Shown piece after piece: positions 56,098 through 64,000 of a stretch of DNA of 64,000 nucleotides. Positions within the stretch are counted from its first letter, which is position 1; each line of letters opens with the position of its first letter. The notes under the pieces are model-generated. The model searched no databases. It saw only the letters and a program-made list of their open reading frames with translations, and had not been told where the DNA came from. This DNA is from Amnibacterium flavum (GTDB lineage: Bacteria; Actinomycetota; Actinomycetes; Actinomycetales; Microbacteriaceae). The stretch covers positions 310,001-374,000 of the forward strand of contig NZ_QEOP01000001.1 in the NCBI RefSeq assembly GCF_003097495.1, written 5' to 3'. Position numbers and translations under genes: made by a program.

Positions 56098-57939
56098 TCA
56101 GGAGGTGAGGACTTCGAGCAGTTTCTCGCCGTAGCGGTCGAGCTTGGCCTGGCCGACACCGGTGATGCCGGCGAGACCATCGAGCGTGGTCGGACGCACG
56201 GTCGCGAGTTCGCGGAGCGACGCATCGTTGAAGACGACGTAGGCGGGGACGCCCTGCTCCTTGGCTTCGGCGGCCCGCCACTCGCGCAGCTCCTCGAACA
56301 TGGGTTGGGCCTCTGGCGGCAGATCGACGACCGCCCGACGGGCACTGCCCGAACCGGCGGACCGGGCGGCCTTCGGCGATTCCTTGCGCAGCTCGACCTT
56401 CGTCGATCCGGACAGCACCCCGGCGCTGCCCTCGGAGAGGACGAGAGTGCCGTACCCGTCATCGGCGACGGCCAGCAGCCCCTGGGCGAGGAGCTGGCGC
56501 AGGACGCCGCGCCACTGCTGCTCGGCGAGATCGGAGCCGATGCCCCAGGTCGCGAGCTTGTCGTGACCGTGCTGCGTGGTGCGTGGAGTGGTCTTGCCTC
56601 GGAGGATGTCGATGATCTGGCCGCCGCCGAAACGCTGGCCGCGTTCGCGCTGCAGGCGCACGACGGTGGACAGGAGCTTCTGGGCGGGGACCGTGCCGTC
56701 CCACGTCTCGGGCTTCTCGATGCAGGTGTCGCAGTTGCCGCAGGGCTCGGCGAGGTTCTGACCGAAGTAGGCGAGCACTTGACGACGACGGCAGTCGACC
56801 GTCTCGCAGAGGGCGAGCATGGCGTCGAGGTTGGCGGACAGGCGACGGCGATGCGCCTCGTCGCCCTCGGACGTCTCGATCATGCGACGCTGCTGCACCA
56901 CGTCGTTGAGCCCGTAGGCGAGCCACGCCGTGGAGGGCAGGCCGTCGCGCCCGGCGCGACCCGTCTCCTGGTAGTAGCCCTCGACCGACTTGGGCAGGTC
57001 GATGTGGGCGACGAAGCGCACATCGGGCTTGTCGATGCCCATGCCGAACGCGATCGTGGCGACCATGACGATGCCGTCGTCGCGGAGAAAGCGGCTCTGG
57101 TTGGCTGCGCGCACGCGTGCGTCGAGACCCGCGTGATAGGGCAGGGCTTTGATGCCCTGCGCAGCGAGGAACTCGGCGGTCTGCTCGACGCTCTTGCGCG
57201 ACAGGGCGTAGACGATGCCCGCGTCGCCGTCGTGCTCGTTCTTGATGAACGACAGCAGCTGCCGACGCGGATCGTCCTTCGGGACGATTCGATACTGGAT
57301 GTTGGGCCTGTCGAAGCTCGAGACGAAATGCTTCGCGTCATCGAGCCGCAGCCGCATCGCGAGTTCGCGATGGGTCGCCTCGGTCGCGGTCGCCGTGAGG
57401 GCGATGCGCGGCACGTCGGGCCAGCGTTCACCGAGGTCGCCGAGAGTCAGGTAGTCGGGTCGGAAGTCGTGACCCCACTGCGCGACGCAATGCGCCTCGT
57501 CGATCGCGACCACCGACAGACCGCCCGCGTTATGGACGTTGTCGAGCAGCCGGCGGGTGCTCTCGAGCGCGAGCCGCTCGGGCGCGACGTAGAGCAGGTC
57601 GACCTGGCCGGCGAGCAGCGCCTGCTCGACGCGGCTGCGCTCGGCGGAGTCCTGGGTGGAGTTGAGGAACTCGGCCCGCGCACCGACCGCGCGGAGTGCC
57701 GACACCTGGTCGTGCATGAGCGCGATGAGCGGCGAGACGACCACTCCCGTGCCCTGTCGGGCGAGGGCGGGGATCTGGTAGCAGAGTGACTTGCCGCCGC
57801 CGGTCGGCATGAGGACGATGGCGTCGCCGCCGCCCAGAACCTGGTCGATGATCTCGCCCTGCTGTCCGCGGAACGCGTCGTAGCCGAACGTGGAACGGAG
57901 AGTCTCGAGGCCTGCTTCGAGTGCGATCGGGGCAGCCAT
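56098..57939 (-). CDS. recQ: ATP-dependent DNA helicase RecQ
   Basis: A 613-residue 3'-5' helicase. Ordered motifs: FRGQQGEIIDQ (motif 0), MPTGGGKSLCYQ (Walker A), IDEAHCVAQWGHDFRPDY (DEAH box and aromatic-rich loop), TATATEATHREL, and QETGRAGRDG (motif VI). It has the RecQ-C-terminal zinc cysteines (CRRRQVLAYFG, CGNCDTC) and an HRDC domain at the end (ELREWRAAEAKEQGVPAYVV). Complete domain set, normal length. ATG 57939 is the only in-frame ATG at the right place. Confidence 0.97.
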   Translation of the reverse strand: MAAPIALEAGLETLRSTFGYDAFRGQQGEIIDQVLGGGDAIVLMPTGGGKSLCYQIPALARQGTGVVVSPLIALMHDQVSALRAVGARAEFLNSTQDSAERSRVEQALLAGQVDLLYVAPERLALESTRRLLDNVHNAGGLSVVAIDEAHCVAQWGHDFRPDYLTLGDLGERWPDVPRIALTATATEATHRELAMRLRLDDAKHFVSSFDRPNIQYRIVPKDDPRRQLLSFIKNEHDGDAGIVYALSRKSVEQTAEFLAAQGIKALPYHAGLDARVRAANQSRFLRDDGIVMVATIAFGMGIDKPDVRFVAHIDLPKSVEGYYQETGRAGRDGLPSTAWLAYGLNDVVQQRRMIETSEGDEAHRRRLSANLDAMLALCETVDCRRRQVLAYFGQNLAEPCGNCDTCIEKPETWDGTVPAQKLLSTVVRLQRERGQRFGGGQIIDILRGKTTPRTTQHGHDKLATWGIGSDLAEQQWRGVLRQLLAQGLLAVADDGYGTLVLSEGSAGVLSGSTKVELRKESPKAARSAGSGSARRAVVDLPPEAQPMFEELREWRAAEAKEQGVPAYVVFNDASLRELATVRPTTLDGLAGITGVGQAKLDRYGEKLLEVLTS

Positions 57940-57990
57940 CCGCTCATGGTAATCGCCGCCGCGGACGTCGCGGCGCCGGCATGGAGAACG

Positions 57991-58006
57991 CGGGACCAAG
58001 GTCCCG
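57991..58006. promoter_or_regulatory. Palindrome CGGGACC-AA-GGTCCCG upstream of recQ and S-component gene
   Basis: Seven-base arms separated by two bases in the 111-bp divergent gap. The GGGACC-N2-GGTCCC core has the form of DosR/DevR boxes (GGGACTTTAGTCCC), but no DosR gene is in the window. It could serve either divergent gene. Confidence 0.45.
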
Positions 58007-58050
58007 GTCATGCGCTGGGGAGGGGACGGAGCGCACCCTAGGCTTGGCGC

Positions 58051-58608
58051 ATGCAGCGCCAGACGACAGCGATCCTGCTCACCTGCGCCGCAATCGGCGT
58101 GGCCGGTGGGCTCGTCTTCGTGCTCGAGGGACTGATCAGCGGAACCGTCGCCGCAGCGGCCCCGTTCCTCTACGGCGCGACACTCGGCGTCTACTTCCTG
58201 CCCGGTGCCATTGCGATGGTCCTCCTCCGCCGTCCGGGTGTCGCACTGCTCTCCGCGGTGATCGCGGGTGTCGTCGTCTCGCCCTTCACGTCGATCTCGG
58301 TGCGCGCGATCGCTGCGACCGCCCTCATCGGAGCCCTGCAGGAGCTGCCGTACGCGATCACCCGCTACCGGAAGCGGCCGGTCTGGCTCCTCTACCTCGG
58401 CGCGGTCGTGGCCGGCGCGATCTTCAGCGCTGTGGTGCTCGTCGCGTTCGACGTCGTCTCGCTGGCGCCCGGACTCCAGTTCGTCGCCGTACTGAGCTCC
58501 GTGCTCGCGCCGGTCGTCTTCACCGCGATCGGGCACGCCATCGCGCTCGGGGTGGCGCGCACCGGCGCTGCTCGCTCACTGGCATGGAGGCCGGCACCCC
58601 GCTCCTAG
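58051..58608 (+). CDS. ECF-transporter S-component (YkoE-like), stand-alone paralogue
   Basis: A 185-residue membrane protein with six helices: TAILLTCAAIGVAGGLVF opens it and RRPGVALLSAVIAGVVVSPFT is the middle landmark. It shares this pattern with the two S components at 62166 and 62777. YkoE-type S components bind thiamine precursors, but no TPP riboswitch is visible here. It lacks adjacent ATPase and T genes and may use the ECF module 1 kb downstream. The mRNA appears leaderless or nearly so (TAGGCT 6 nt before the ATG). Confidence 0.85.
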   Translation: MQRQTTAILLTCAAIGVAGGLVFVLEGLISGTVAAAAPFLYGATLGVYFLPGAIAMVLLRRPGVALLSAVIAGVVVSPFTSISVRAIAATALIGALQELPYAITRYRKRPVWLLYLGAVVAGAIFSAVVLVAFDVVSLAPGLQFVAVLSSVLAPVVFTAIGHAIALGVARTGAARSLAWRPAPRS

Positions 58609-58622
58609 CGCGACGGCATGCG

Positions 58623-59447
58623 TCACATCTCCTCGTGCGTGTTCGGGTCGCCCCCGAAGAGTCGGCCGTCCGCCCGCCCGAGAGACGAGATCGCGGCGAC
58701 CTGGTCATGGGTGAGGGTGAACCCGCCGAGCTCGAAGTTCTCCCGCTGACGGTCGGGGTTCGCCGACTTGGGGATCGGCACCGACCCGATCTGCTGATGC
58801 CAGCGGAGGATCACCTGCGCCGCGCTCACCCCGTGCGCACGTGCAGCCGAGGCGACCGGCTCCGCCTCCTTGACGGGGGCGGCCTTGCCGAGCGGGCTCC
58901 ACGCCTCCGTCACGATCCCGTGCTCCTCGTGGAAGGCCCGCAGCTGCTCCTGCGGGAAGAACGGGTGCAACTCGACCTGGTTCACCGACGGCATGACGCC
59001 GGTCGCATCGGCGATGCGGAGCAGGAACTCCTCGGTGAAGTTCGAGACCCCGATCGACCTCACGCGACCCTGCTGCTGGAGAGCGACCATCGCGCGCCAG
59101 GTCTCGACGAACTTCCCGACGCTGGGGTTCGGCCAGTGGATGAGATAGAGGTCGACGGTGTCGAGACCCAGCGCGGCCGCCGAGCGGTCGAACGAGGCGA
59201 GCGTCTCGTCGTACCCGTGGTCGCGGCCCGGGAGCTTCGTCGTGACGACGATGTCGTCCCTCGCGACGTCGGTCTGGGCGATCGCCCTCCCCACAGCGTC
59301 CTCATTGCCGTAGTTGACGGCGGTGTCGATGAGGCGGTAGCCGATCTCGAGGGCGCTCAGGACGGCACCGGTGCCCTCCGCTCCCTTCAACGGGTAGGTG
59401 CCGAAGCCGATGTCGGGCAGGAGGGTTCCGTCGGAGAGTGCGAGCAT
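58623..59447 (-). CDS. Aldo/keto reductase
   Basis: A 274-residue NADPH-dependent AKR (AKR5-like): DTAVNYGNEDAVGRAI with the catalytic Tyr, DDIVVTTKLPG with Lys, LYLIHWPNPS with His, and SIGVSNF. NADPH-site segment SVPIPKSANPDRQRENFEL. Reduces aldehydes or 2,5-diketo-gluconate-like ketones. It sits on the minus strand between the stand-alone S component and the ECF operon and is not part of either. Confidence 0.94.
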   Translation of the reverse strand: MLALSDGTLLPDIGFGTYPLKGAEGTGAVLSALEIGYRLIDTAVNYGNEDAVGRAIAQTDVARDDIVVTTKLPGRDHGYDETLASFDRSAAALGLDTVDLYLIHWPNPSVGKFVETWRAMVALQQQGRVRSIGVSNFTEEFLLRIADATGVMPSVNQVELHPFFPQEQLRAFHEEHGIVTEAWSPLGKAAPVKEAEPVASAARAHGVSAAQVILRWHQQIGSVPIPKSANPDRQRENFELGGFTLTHDQVAAISSLGRADGRLFGGDPNTHEEM

Positions 59448-59535
59448 GCCTCCACCGTACGACTCCTCCCCGCCGCTGACGCTGGATGCTCGTGCTCGCC
59501 TCACTCTGACGGCCGGCCATCCTTGGCTCGCGAAG

Positions 59536-59554
59536 ATAGGTAAGGCTATGCTCA
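59536..59554 (+). promoter_or_regulatory. DtxR/IdeR-like iron box before the ECF operon
   Basis: The 19 bases ATAGGTAAGGCTATGCTCA resemble the iron-repressor consensus TTAGGTTAGGCTAACCTAA, with the left half best conserved and the right half degenerate. It lies 33 bp upstream of the TTG start of the ATPase gene. The TAGGTAAGGCT form is typical of iron-regulated siderophore genes in actinobacteria. Confidence 0.65.
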
Positions 59555-59587
59555 GTTGCGCTCTGATCGCCGACCCGGAGGTGCCGC

Positions 59588-61330
59588 TTGTCCGCAGCCA
59601 GCGCGCCTGCCTCCGACCCGCACCTCGACCGCCCGAGGCCGAGCGCTCTGCTCAGCACCGTGGGCGTCTCGATCCTCCACGAGGGCGGGACTCGACCCAC
59701 TCCCCTGGCCGTCGACCTCGCCGTTCACCCCGGTGAGGTGCTCCTCGTGCTCGGGCCCTCGGGGTCGGGCAAGTCGACGCTCGCCCTCGCCCTCAACGGA
59801 CTCGTGCCACATGCCGTGCCCGCGAGCCTCGAGGGCGAGGTGCTGATCGGCGGACGATCCTCCCGCGAGATCAGCGTCGCCGAGGCGAGCCGCACGGTCG
59901 GCATGGTCTTCCAGGATCCCGACGCACAGATCGTGACCGGGACGGTGCTCGACGAGGTCAGCTTCGGCCCCGAGAACCTCCTCGTCCCCACCGACGAGGT
60001 TCTCGCGCGAGCCGAACGCGCCCTCCGCGAGGTCGGACTGTGGGAGCGCCGGTCCGAGAATCCCGACCGCCTCTCCGGCGGCGGACGCCAACGCCTCGCC
60101 ATCGCCTGCGCACTGGCGATGGGGTCGCCGCTGCTCGTGCTCGACGAGCCGACCGCCAACCTCGATCCCGTCGGCATCGACGAGGTCTACGCGGTCCTGC
60201 GCCGGATCGTGCGGGACGATCGCCGCTCGGTCCTGCTCATCGAGCACAACCTCGACGCCGCGATCGATCTGGTCGACCGCGTGCTGGTCCTCGACCGCCT
60301 CGGCAGGGTCGCCCTCACCGGAACCGTCGACGAGGTGCTCCGCCACCGGGTCGACGAGGTGCGGGCGCTCGGCGTCTGGCTGCCGATCGCGACCCTCGCC
60401 GCACTCGACCTCCGCGCTGCCGGAATGGATCTCGACCCCCTTCCCCTCACCGCGCGCGAGCTGACGGCCGGACTCGACGCGCTGCCCGAACTCCCCGCAC
60501 CTCGTCTCCCCGGACCCGAGGGCGAGCACCGCGCACCTGCGGTCGAGGTCAGGTCGCTGTCGGTCGTGAAGCGCGGCACGACACTTCTCGACGACGTTGA
60601 GCTGTCGGTGCCCGCCGGCGAGATGCTCGCGATCATCGGAACCAACGGAGCGGGCAAGACGACGCTCCTCCAGGCGATCGCGGGTGTGGTCCCGCCCCCT
60701 CGCGGCACCGTGACCGTCGGCGGCCTCGACCCGGCGAAGGCCGACGTCCGCACGCTCGCGGCGACCATCGGATTCGTCTTCCAGAACCCCGAGCACCAGT
60801 TCCTCGAGCCCTCCGTCGCCGACGAGCTCGCCCACGGACTGCGGATCAGAGGCATCCCCGCCGACGAGGTGGAGCATCGGGTCGACAGGATGCTCGCCCG
60901 GTTCGGACTGACCGAGCTGCGAGCGCAGCACCCCTTCCTCCTCTCGGGCGGGCAGAAGCGCAGGCTCTCGGTCGGCACCGCGCTCATCGCCGGCGCTCCG
61001 GTGCTCGCGCTCGACGAGCCGACGTTCGGGCAGGACCGCGAGCACGCTGCCGAGCTGCTCGACGTGCTCGCCCGGCTGCGCGACGAGGGAACGACGGTGC
61101 TCATGGTCACCCACGACCTCCAGCTCGTCGCGGACTACGCGGATCGGGTCGCGGTCCTCTCCGGCGGGAGACTGCTCGGCGCCGGCCCCACCTCGACCGT
61201 GCTGGCGGGCGACCTCATCGAGCGGGCCGGCCTCCGACCACCACCGCTCACGCGTGCGATGCGGGCGTTGGCGAACCATCCCGAGTGGCGCTCCGTCAGC
61301 CGCCTGGCCGACCTGCCGGTCGCCCCATGA
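59588..61330 (+). CDS. ECF-transporter double ATPase (EcfA/EcfA' fusion, YkoD-like)
   Basis: A 580-residue fusion of two ATPases. Domain 1 has GPSGSGKSTLALAL, MVFQDPDAQIVTGTVLDEV and LLVLDEPTANLDPVGI, but its signature reads RLSGGGRQRLAIA instead of LSGGQ. Domain 2 has GTNGAGKTTLLQAI, FVFQNPEHQFLEPSVADEL, a normal LLSGGQKRRLSVG and VLALDEPTFGQD. It energises vitamin- or metal-type uptake with the T component. TTG start, preceded by GGAGGTG. Confidence 0.92.
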   Translation: MSAASAPASDPHLDRPRPSALLSTVGVSILHEGGTRPTPLAVDLAVHPGEVLLVLGPSGSGKSTLALALNGLVPHAVPASLEGEVLIGGRSSREISVAEASRTVGMVFQDPDAQIVTGTVLDEVSFGPENLLVPTDEVLARAERALREVGLWERRSENPDRLSGGGRQRLAIACALAMGSPLLVLDEPTANLDPVGIDEVYAVLRRIVRDDRRSVLLIEHNLDAAIDLVDRVLVLDRLGRVALTGTVDEVLRHRVDEVRALGVWLPIATLAALDLRAAGMDLDPLPLTARELTAGLDALPELPAPRLPGPEGEHRAPAVEVRSLSVVKRGTTLLDDVELSVPAGEMLAIIGTNGAGKTTLLQAIAGVVPPPRGTVTVGGLDPAKADVRTLAATIGFVFQNPEHQFLEPSVADELAHGLRIRGIPADEVEHRVDRMLARFGLTELRAQHPFLLSGGQKRRLSVGTALIAGAPVLALDEPTFGQDREHAAELLDVLARLRDEGTTVLMVTHDLQLVADYADRVAVLSGGRLLGAGPTSTVLAGDLIERAGLRPPPLTRAMRALANHPEWRSVSRLADLPVAP

Positions 61331-62169
61331 CCGCGGCGACGACGGCGATGATCGACCCGTTCGCCGTGAGACCGGACTACGGACCCGTCCGATTCCTCTA
61401 CCGGCTCAATCCGCTGAGCAAGATCGCGGCCCCGCTGCCCGCGATGATCGCGTTGATCTTCGTGCGCGATCCACTCACCCCCGCGATCTTCCTCGGCCTG
61501 ACCTTCGCTCTCATCCTCATCGGCGCGAAGCTCTCCCGACGCGCAGCACTCGGAATCCTCCTCGGCATCCCCGCGGCGCTGATCGTCCTGACCCTGAGCT
61601 TCGCGCTGTGGACCGATCCTGCCCGTACCGCGGACACGACGAACCTGTTCACGATCGCCGACTACCGGTTCAACACCGGTGCGCTCTACATCGGCGCTTC
61701 CACGGCGCTGAGGCTCACGACCCTCGCCGCCCTCGCCCTGCTGGGCGGCCTGACGACCGACGGCCCCGACCTGGTCCGATCACTCGTCCAGCAGCTGCGC
61801 GTGCCGTACCGGATCGGGTACACCGCACTCGCCGCCTACCGGTTCGTGCCGCGGTTCGCGCACGAGCTCGAGATCATCCGCGCCGCCCATCGGGTTCGCG
61901 GCATGGCAGGTGGACGCGGCCCGATCGCGGGGCTCCGGCGCTACCTCGGCTATGTGGTGCCGCTCCTCGCGAGCGCGATCCGGCACGCGGAGCGGGTCGC
62001 ACTCTCGATGGATTCGCGCGCGTTCGGCGCCCACCCGACCCGCACCGAGCGTCACCTCGTTCCGTTCCGCACCCGCGACTGGCTGTTCATCGCCGCGTTC
62101 TGGATCGTCAGCGCTCTCGTCCTGCTCGCCCTCCCCCGCGATTTCCTTCCCCTGATCGGAGACCGATGA
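61327..62169 (+). CDS. ECF-transporter T component (transmembrane, YkoC-like)
   Basis: A 280-residue membrane protein. Hallmarks are the cytoplasmic coupling helices with their Ala-Arg-Gly pattern: IIRAAHRVRGMAGGRG and LSMDSRAFGAHP. N-terminal RFLYRLNPLSKIAAPLPAMI is the standard EcfT opening. It overlaps the ATPase gene by 4 bp and the first S gene by 4 bp (ATGA at both ends), so the four genes are tightly coupled. Confidence 0.93.
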   Translation: MTAATTAMIDPFAVRPDYGPVRFLYRLNPLSKIAAPLPAMIALIFVRDPLTPAIFLGLTFALILIGAKLSRRAALGILLGIPAALIVLTLSFALWTDPARTADTTNLFTIADYRFNTGALYIGASTALRLTTLAALALLGGLTTDGPDLVRSLVQQLRVPYRIGYTALAAYRFVPRFAHELEIIRAAHRVRGMAGGRGPIAGLRRYLGYVVPLLASAIRHAERVALSMDSRAFGAHPTRTERHLVPFRTRDWLFIAAFWIVSALVLLALPRDFLPLIGDR

Positions 62170-62780
62170 CCTCTCACGCCGTGCCCCCGACCCGGAGACG
62201 CGCCAGCACGCGCTTCCTCATGACCTGCGCCGTGCTCGGTGTCGCCGGCGGACTGCTGTCGATCGCCCTCAACTGGGCGAGCGTCGGCTTCGCGACCGTC
62301 GGCGTCGTCTTCTTCGGGGTGACGATCGGCTTGTGGGTCCTCCCCTCGATCATCGGGCTGGCCCTCCTCCAGCGCCCGGGTGCGGGAGCCCTCATCGCGG
62401 TGCTCGCCGGGCTCGTGAACGCCCCGTTCACCCCGTTCGGATACGCGCAGATCCCCACCGCGCTCATGATGGCGGTGCTCGTCGAACTGCCGTTCCTCGT
62501 CACGCTCTACCGCGTCTGGAAGCCGTGGCTGTTCTACGTCGGGTACACCGTGCTCCTCACCGCGTTCTCGACCCTCTGGTTCGTCGCAACGGACATCATG
62601 AGCAGCCCGGCGCTGCTCGTCGCCGCCTACGCCGCCTCGGCGATCGCGTCTCTGTTCTTCGTCTGGCTCGCGCTGCTCCTCGCGAAACGTCTGCGTCACG
62701 CGGGAGTCGGCCGCACGGTAGCCCGGCCGGTGCCGCCAGTCGCCGCGTCGCCCTACGGCAGCGGTGGTGCGACGTCGTGA
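62166..62780 (+). CDS. ECF S component 1 (substrate-binding membrane subunit)
   Basis: A 204-residue six-helix protein: FLMTCAVLGVAGGLL, LQRPGAGALIAVLAGLVNAPFTPFG and WKPWLFYVGYTVLL. The length and pattern fit the YkoE-like/ThiW-like group, but the linked iron box and siderophore-interacting gene argue for a different ligand. It overlaps both neighbours by 4 bp and is the first of two tandem paralogues. Confidence 0.88.
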   Translation: MTSHAVPPTRRRASTRFLMTCAVLGVAGGLLSIALNWASVGFATVGVVFFGVTIGLWVLPSIIGLALLQRPGAGALIAVLAGLVNAPFTPFGYAQIPTALMMAVLVELPFLVTLYRVWKPWLFYVGYTVLLTAFSTLWFVATDIMSSPALLVAAYAASAIASLFFVWLALLLAKRLRHAGVGRTVARPVPPVAASPYGSGGATS

Positions 62781-63352
62781 GCCGCTTCCCGACCCGGTAC
62801 CTGCTCACCTGTGCGGCCATCGGCGCGGCCGGGGGCGTCCTGCTGATCCCCGCGAACAACGTCGCCGCAGCCGTCTCCGCCTCGCTGCCGCCGCTCTACG
62901 CCGCGATCGTCGGAGTATGGATCCTGCCCGTCATCACCGGCCTCGCGCTGCTGCGTCGCCCCGGGGTCGGGGTGCTCGTCGCCCTGCTCGCGTCCCTCGT
63001 GACGGTCCCGTTCACTCCGTACGGCGCCCGCTCGATCATCACCGGCCTCATGGTCGGGATCGCGTTGGAGCTGCCGTTCGCGATCGCGCTCTACCGGCAC
63101 TGGCGGCCGTGGCTGTTCTTCGTCGCCGCTCTCCTCGTCGGCGGGCTCTACGCCGGCGTCTCGTTCAACAGCCTCGATCTGCCCACCTTCCCGGCGGGGG
63201 TGCAGATCGCCTTCGTCGCCCTCCTGCTGGTGAGCGTCGCCGTCGCGGTCGCGCTCGGTCTGTGGTTGGCGCGTGCGGTCGAACGCACCGGCGTCGTCCG
63301 CGGGATCGCTCGCCCGAGAGCGGCGACTCCGGGTGCAGAGGCGGTTCGCTGA
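62777..63352 (+). CDS. ECF S component 2 (tandem paralogue)
   Basis: A 191-residue paralogue of S component 1 and of the stand-alone S gene: YLLTCAAIGAAGGVL, RRPGVGVLVALLASLVTVPFTPYG, WRPWLFFVAALLVGG. The GTG start overlaps S1 (GTGA), and its stop overlaps the siderophore-interacting gene by 1 bp (TGATG). Two S genes in one operon suggest either two ligands for one ECF module or a heterodimeric S subunit. Confidence 0.88.
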   Translation: MSRFPTRYLLTCAAIGAAGGVLLIPANNVAAAVSASLPPLYAAIVGVWILPVITGLALLRRPGVGVLVALLASLVTVPFTPYGARSIITGLMVGIALELPFAIALYRHWRPWLFFVAALLVGGLYAGVSFNSLDLPTFPAGVQIAFVALLLVSVAVAVALGLWLARAVERTGVVRGIARPRAATPGAEAVR

Positions 63353-64000
63353 TGGCGCGCGGACTCCCCCGCAGGGTCGAGCCCGATGAGAAGGTGATCC
63401 TGCACGCCCACGTGCTGCGCACCGAGCGGGTCAGCCCCTCGTTCCAGCGGGTGACGATCACCGGCGAGGCGCTGCGGCGCTACGCGCCCCTCGGGTACGA
63501 CCAGTGGTTCCGGCTCTTCCTGCCCGCGCCCGGCCACAACGATATGAAGCTGCCGAAGAACCCGGGCGGGCTCCTCGGGTATGCGCGGTTCCTCGCCATC
63601 CCAAAAGCCTCGCGCCCCGCGCTCCGCAACTACACGACGCGGGCGTACCGACACGGGGTCGAAGGCGGTGCGCTTCCCGAGCTCGACATCGACTTCGTGC
63701 TGCACGGCGATGAAGGGTTCGCCTCCGGATGGGCCGCCCGCGCGCAGCCCGGCGACGAGGTCGCACTTCTCGACGAGGGCATCCTCTACGTGCCGCACGA
63801 GACGACGAGACGGCACCTGATCATCACGGACGAGACAGGACTGCCGGCACTGGCCGCCATCGGCGAGTCCCTCCCGCGGGATGCGGTCGGCGATGCCGTT
63901 CTCGAGGTGGCCGATCGAGCGGATGCCGAGTTGATGACCCTGCCTGCCGGGATGACGCTCCATGTGCTCGAGAGGGCCGAGGGGCTGCATCCCGGGTCGG
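63352..64000 (+). CDS. Siderophore-interacting protein (ferric-siderophore reductase), 3' part missing
   Basis: The 216 visible codons show the FAD domain of the SIP/ViuB family: ILHAHVLRTERVSPSFQRVT, YDQWFRLFLP, NYTTRAYR (FAD phosphate loop) and DIDFVLHG. The NAD(P)H-binding domain begins with TRRHLIITDETGLPALAAI. It reduces ferric siderophores or related chelates to release iron. The gene is truncated by the window edge. As the fifth gene of the ECF operon it strongly suggests an iron-related cargo for that transporter. Confidence 0.92.
   Translation, partial: MARGLPRRVEPDEKVILHAHVLRTERVSPSFQRVTITGEALRRYAPLGYDQWFRLFLPAPGHNDMKLPKNPGGLLGYARFLAIPKASRPALRNYTTRAYRHGVEGGALPELDIDFVLHGDEGFASGWAARAQPGDEVALLDEGILYVPHETTRRHLIITDETGLPALAAIGESLPRDAVGDAVLEVADRADAELMTLPAGMTLHVLERAEGLHPGS

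Follow-up and report, generated by a model that had tools for sequence, protein, structure and literature searches.

A YkoE-related ECF transporter operon behind a DtxR/IdeR-type box in Amnibacterium flavum probably imports iron chelates

Introduction

In this work, we report that an operon in a 64,000-nucleotide stretch of the Amnibacterium flavum genome (contig NZ_QEOP01000001.1, positions 310,001 to 374,000; hereafter the window) probably encodes an ECF system for iron chelates that is homologous to YkoEDC and would stand under DtxR/IdeR repression. The loss of the thiamine-contacting residues, the iron-repressor site and the neighbouring gene of a siderophore-interacting flavoreductase (SIP) together point to siderophore- or haem-bound iron as the probable cargo. 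From the SIP gene and the box alone we infer siderophore import as the putative function of the operon, and the broader prediction, that the operon imports iron chelates under the control of a DtxR-type repressor, has good support from the comparison with related loci.

The known substrates of ECF transporters are vitamins, nickel and cobalt and, in the case of LhaSTA, haem. No ECF importer tied to a SIP or to DtxR in actinobacteria was found in the literature searched, most subscription journals and bioRxiv lying outside its scope.

Materials and methods

In the family of the window, 157 of 199 genomes match S2 at 1e-5 and 46, counted from the match table, do so better than 1e-15. From these, 57 loci were taken, comprising all places that matched better than 1e-15 plus three slightly weaker ones, and together with the own locus and the own canonical YkoE locus they make up a set of 59 loci. 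In a second scan the best 80 of 212 relatives, ranked by S2 similarity, were kept, so that S-down loci are over-represented. A scan of the class found matches at 1e-16 in 20 of 394 genomes, 18 of these 20 belonging to the family of the window, own genome included. Both EcfA-A' and EcfT are held by 108 of 138 loci, and removal of eight with near-identical EcfT left a set of 100 operons.

S-up denotes the 82-row set around S3 and S-down every other non-canonical S; S-down as counted includes genes upstream of the ATPase (L037, L066, L088). Boxes were scored against TWAGGTWAGSCTWACCTWA (IUPAC form, 19 positions), which we take to be the DtxR/IdeR consensus.

Results

Layout of the operon

Table 1. 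Features of the ECF operon and its upstream region, in window coordinates
Feature	Coordinates	Strand	Evidence and remarks
S3, S component, S-up lineage	58051..58608	+	PF09819 9e-16; placed in the S-up set by the tree
Aldo-keto reductase gene	58623..59504	opposite strand	between S3 and the operon
DtxR/IdeR-type candidate box	59536..59554		in the gap that separates ecfA-A' from the divergent aldo-keto reductase gene; 15/19 consensus
EcfA-A', fused ECF ATPases	59588..61330	+	TTG start; TIGR04520 371.7 bits, TIGR04521 370.5 bits, both above cut-off
EcfT, transmembrane coupling protein	61327..62169	+	PF02361 2e-26
S1, S component not belonging to S-up	62166..62780	+	PF09819 1.2e-12
S2, S component, S-down lineage	62777..63352	+	PF09819 match
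SIP, siderophore-interacting flavoreductase	63352..64169 (window ends at 64000)	+	PF08021 8.7e-32, PF04954 6.7e-27

The genes that a sequence-only reading of the window had listed, namely those of an EcfA-A' fusion, EcfT, S1, S2 and SIP, are all borne out by Pfam and NCBIfam matches. Their start-to-stop overlaps are seen in the sequence and read ATGA, ATGA, GTGA and TGATG along the operon. The EcfA-A' chain consists of two ABC domains by NCBIfam profiles, and S components, EcfT and two ABC ATPase domains are thus encoded together, as in an ECF transporter. That reading was right in placing a SIP gene in the operon, and the gene runs past the end of the window (L003:9352-10167 in locus numbering); its product carries the FAD_binding_9 and SIP domains, both above the Pfam cut-off, and the solved chains nearest to it in a PDB comparison are themselves SIPs. 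The two tandem S paralogues that it described are indeed S1 and S2, but it overlooked S3, which makes three in all, and it took the presence of two S genes as an oddity, whereas in Microbacterium a module is usually accompanied by several S genes.

S2 shares 42% identity with S1, 40% with S3 and 32% with the canonical YkoE that the genome also encodes. By tree and identity, S1 is closest to an S gene beside a SIP gene in a same-genus genome (66%), and the tree places S2 closest to S-down genes of Agromyces. At L075, the locus of that same-genus genome, no S2 lies between the S and SIP genes, so S2 may have been slotted into the operon later. In the same locus, S3, box and EcfA-A' are adjacent, unlike in the window, where the aldo-keto reductase gene interrupts them. 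Since the box sits in a divergent gap, it could also act on the aldo-keto reductase gene. A scan for the sigma-70 consensus over 57800-64000 found no promoter, a weak test for a high-GC actinobacterium.

A conserved iron box

The claim of a DtxR/IdeR-like box ahead of the operon held up, as this site scores best in the 64 kb, the next reaching 13. With four mismatches it is weaker than three further sites in the genome that lie within three mismatches (reversed-consensus control, 0). These precede the genes of a siderophore-binding protein (PF01497) and of a haem oxygenase, and a small gene whose match to the SIP domain is below cut-off. The genome holds two strong matches to DtxR-family genes. 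Upstream of S3 no site scores above 10/19, so this gene lacks a box, and in Microbacterium, too, S-up genes stand upstream of the box.

Across the 59 loci, sites scoring at least 14 number 36 in 23,088 upstream positions versus 7 in 1,012,440 others, and four of these seven, from L044 and L075, separate S from EcfA-A', a position that the definition of the upstream zone missed. Such a site occurs within the operon or the 300 bases around it in 85 of the 100 related operons (none in the other 15), versus a mean of 4.1 and a highest count of 53 operons for 200 control palindromes made by shuffling the consensus letters; it was also present in 13 of the 30 loci excluded for a missing core gene. 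Among the canonical YkoE control loci, which at 2.1 kb each are shorter than the operons, none of 20 reaches 13. A consensus box that stands ahead of the operon and is kept in relatives is consistent with membership in a DtxR/IdeR regulon, and the box is a candidate binding site for such a repressor. Near the L044 operon, a radical-SAM gene has sub-cut-off intein-splicing and LAGLIDADG matches (L044:14827-18997).

Two S lineages and their link to SIP

In YkoE, Trp49 stacks on the thiamine pyrimidine. Outside S-up, Trp is found at this position in 89 of 95 rows, S1 and S2 included, whereas all 82 S-up rows carry Tyr (44) or His (38), and this difference indicates that the two lineages have different predicted pockets.

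The usual order in Microbacterium is S-up, box, EcfA-A', EcfT, SIP, S-down. Among the 100 operons, 35 hold both S types, all with SIP, 31 hold S-down only, 12 with SIP, and 34 hold S-up only, a single one with SIP (Fisher p 1e-11 for the association of S-down with SIP). A search for conserved neighbourhoods of these S paralogues with SIP genes, the check proposed by the earlier reading, finds SIP in 47 of 66 operons with an S outside S-up, with 19 lacking it, and in 1 of 34 with S-up only. A test of independent pairs yielded one such pair on supported branches, too few events, so shared descent may account for much of the association. With three SIP loci in the 3.57 Mb of the own genome, the repeated adjacency of SIP is not a matter of chance. 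Many S-up operons (L073, L074, L076, L077, L079, L081, L082, L084 and others) lie opposite the copper genes CopC and YcnI (DUF1775), and also near pirin.

Siderophores or haem

An iron-import precedent exists that qualifies the premise of the earlier reading that ECF systems mostly import vitamins or cobalt/nickel: LhaSTA of Staphylococcus lugdunensis is described in PMC7299338 as an iron-regulated ECF importer of haem, with a LhaS spectrum that suggested histidine, and PMC6593403 counts siaFGH, from a haem operon, among ECF genes. The whole system could thus import haem like LhaSTA, with a haem oxygenase under the same repressor opening the ring and SIP giving electrons to that step or handling the freed iron. 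This alternative, which we consider unlikely though not negligible, draws on the box before the haem oxygenase gene of the own genome, on the invariable Tyr or His of S-up, and on L088, a locus without box in which a haem oxygenase gene lies directly ahead of S-EcfA-A'-EcfT and the S carries Tyr at the Trp49 position of the pocket, yet falls outside the S-up set. Haem oxygenase also co-occurs with this S class, being present in 41 of 46 genomes with it versus 79 of 153 others (p 2e-6) and, among genomes with strong FecCD, in 41 of 46 versus 74 of 105 (p 0.013), both values uncorrected for kinship. However, L088 is the single adjacent case among the 139 loci searched, so haem oxygenase was rejected as a general neighbour of the operon, SIP belongs to a siderophore reductase family, and SIP tracks the Trp-bearing S lineage and not S-up.

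The siderophore side is represented as well by a distant member, L067, in which a 19/19 box precedes an S gene, a fused EcfA-A'-T chain and two ABC half-transporters (L067:2618-8985), whose nearest half-size PDB chains are IrtA and YbtPQ/IrtB and whose best NCBIfam name, MsbA, is far below cut-off. In L067 and L068, the latter from its map only, the ECF module is joined to this second kind of siderophore importer. Weighing SIP and L067 against L088, the Tyr/His position and the haem oxygenase co-occurrence, we would assign siderophores to S-down, with haem as the first candidate for S-up. Conventional FecCD importers are found in 46 of 46 family-sample genomes with this S class, so the ECF system would be one of at least two routes for iron.

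In three genomes, an S-down gene lies behind its own box without a nearby ATPase, and the S-up/EcfA-A'/EcfT operon lies elsewhere (L042 and L043, L048 and L049, L050 and L051). Together with operons that hold two or three S genes, these split genomes suggest that several S proteins may share one EcfA-A'T module. Orphan S-down genes of this kind (L042, L048, L050 and, in Agreia, L145, L157, L158, L160, L187, L195) have genes for sugar transport and glycosidases as neighbours. S-up-type orphans that lack a box (L036, L039, L055) have a common neighbourhood with glycosyltransferase-like genes, and in two genomes of this group a haem oxygenase gene lies about 11 kb away.

Loss of the thiamine contacts

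A thiamine, HMP or related-vitamin transporter that is incidentally iron-controlled would fit the PF09819 domain and YkoE fold of the S components, the best structural match by VIA-align, which is thiamine-bound YkoE, and the Trp49 kept in S1 and S2. LhaS was not among the VIA-align structural matches, a result that carries no weight. The S components are YkoE homologues, but they do not group firmly with thiamine binders, as the canonical YkoE proteins occupy their own side of the tree (support 98). Gln95 and Asp131, each present in 20 of 21 canonical rows, are absent in all 177 non-canonical rows, and thiamine import was rejected on this ground. In 54 of the 95 rows outside S-up the Gln95 position is taken by Trp, and the Q95W substitution abolished thiamine binding in YkoE, according to PMC5037267. 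A TPP riboswitch accompanies 17 of 21 canonical YkoE loci; none was found at the window operon (L003) or in the 44 related loci scanned, with ten loci covered over their whole length, and in the own genome a TPP riboswitch already accompanies a canonical YkoEDC. We therefore regard the vitamin transporter as highly improbable. The ECF mechanism of iron import put forward by the sequence-only reading gains support from the same tree, the same lost contacts and the recurring box, with the chelate itself a prediction.

Equally improbable is an importer of manganese, cobalt, cobalamin or some other non-iron metal or complex, controlled by a DtxR-family repressor that would respond to a metal other than iron. 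The two strong DtxR-family genes and the membership of EcfT in the CbiQ Pfam family could accommodate it, but siderophore and haem genes of the genome stand behind sites of the same consensus, SIP belongs to an iron-chelate reductase family, no cobalamin riboswitch was found at the window operon or in the related loci scanned, and EcfT, at 49.5 bits, is far under the CbiQ equivalog cut-off of 111.8, on which the cobalt/nickel (CbiMNQO) assignment was rejected.

Discussion

Based on these findings, we propose that iron-loaded DtxR/IdeR would repress the operon by binding at the predicted box. At low iron, the S proteins would bind ferric chelates on the outer face and dock on a shared EcfA-A'T, through which ATP would drive chelate import, and SIP would reduce the ferric siderophore in the cytosol, whereby Fe(II) would be freed. 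S1 and S2, which stand beside SIP, would most likely take ferric siderophores, and S3, of the S-up lineage, would take another chelate via the same module, haem being the first candidate.

The homologous YkoEDC system (Bacillus subtilis YkoE, PDB 5EDL) differs from the one described here in that its Gln95 and Asp131 contacts are lost here, a DtxR-type box stands where YkoEDC has a TPP riboswitch, two or three S genes accompany one module, and a SIP gene is part of the operon. LhaSTA, as described in PMC7299338, resembles the present system as an ECF importer of an iron source under an iron repressor, whereas it has a Fur box and the isd locus in place of a DtxR-type box, SIP and several PF09819 S genes. 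With the FecCD/SIP and IrtAB routes the system has in common a SIP-type reductase and iron regulation, IrtA itself bearing a SIP domain; here, however, the importer beside SIP is an ECF system, and the operon is without a substrate-binding lipoprotein.

Tentatively, and as a reading that is possible rather than probable in its entirety, we further propose that an ECF system takes ferric siderophores, and that one EcfA-A'T could serve two old S lineages, with siderophores handled by S-down (Trp, SIP-linked) and haem by S-up (Tyr/His); S genes located elsewhere in the genome behind their own box would also use this module. A vitamin-type S fold would then have been re-tooled into receptors for iron chelates, mainly in Microbacteriaceae. 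The two S lineages, the one module and the S genes with their own box would allow module sharing to be tested in a transporter of the YkoE type. If true, the siderophore route would represent a new form of iron uptake that needs no soluble binding protein, in a large family whose members include soil, plant and dairy bacteria, and would reveal how a thiamine-type pocket came to be re-tooled for ferric chelates.
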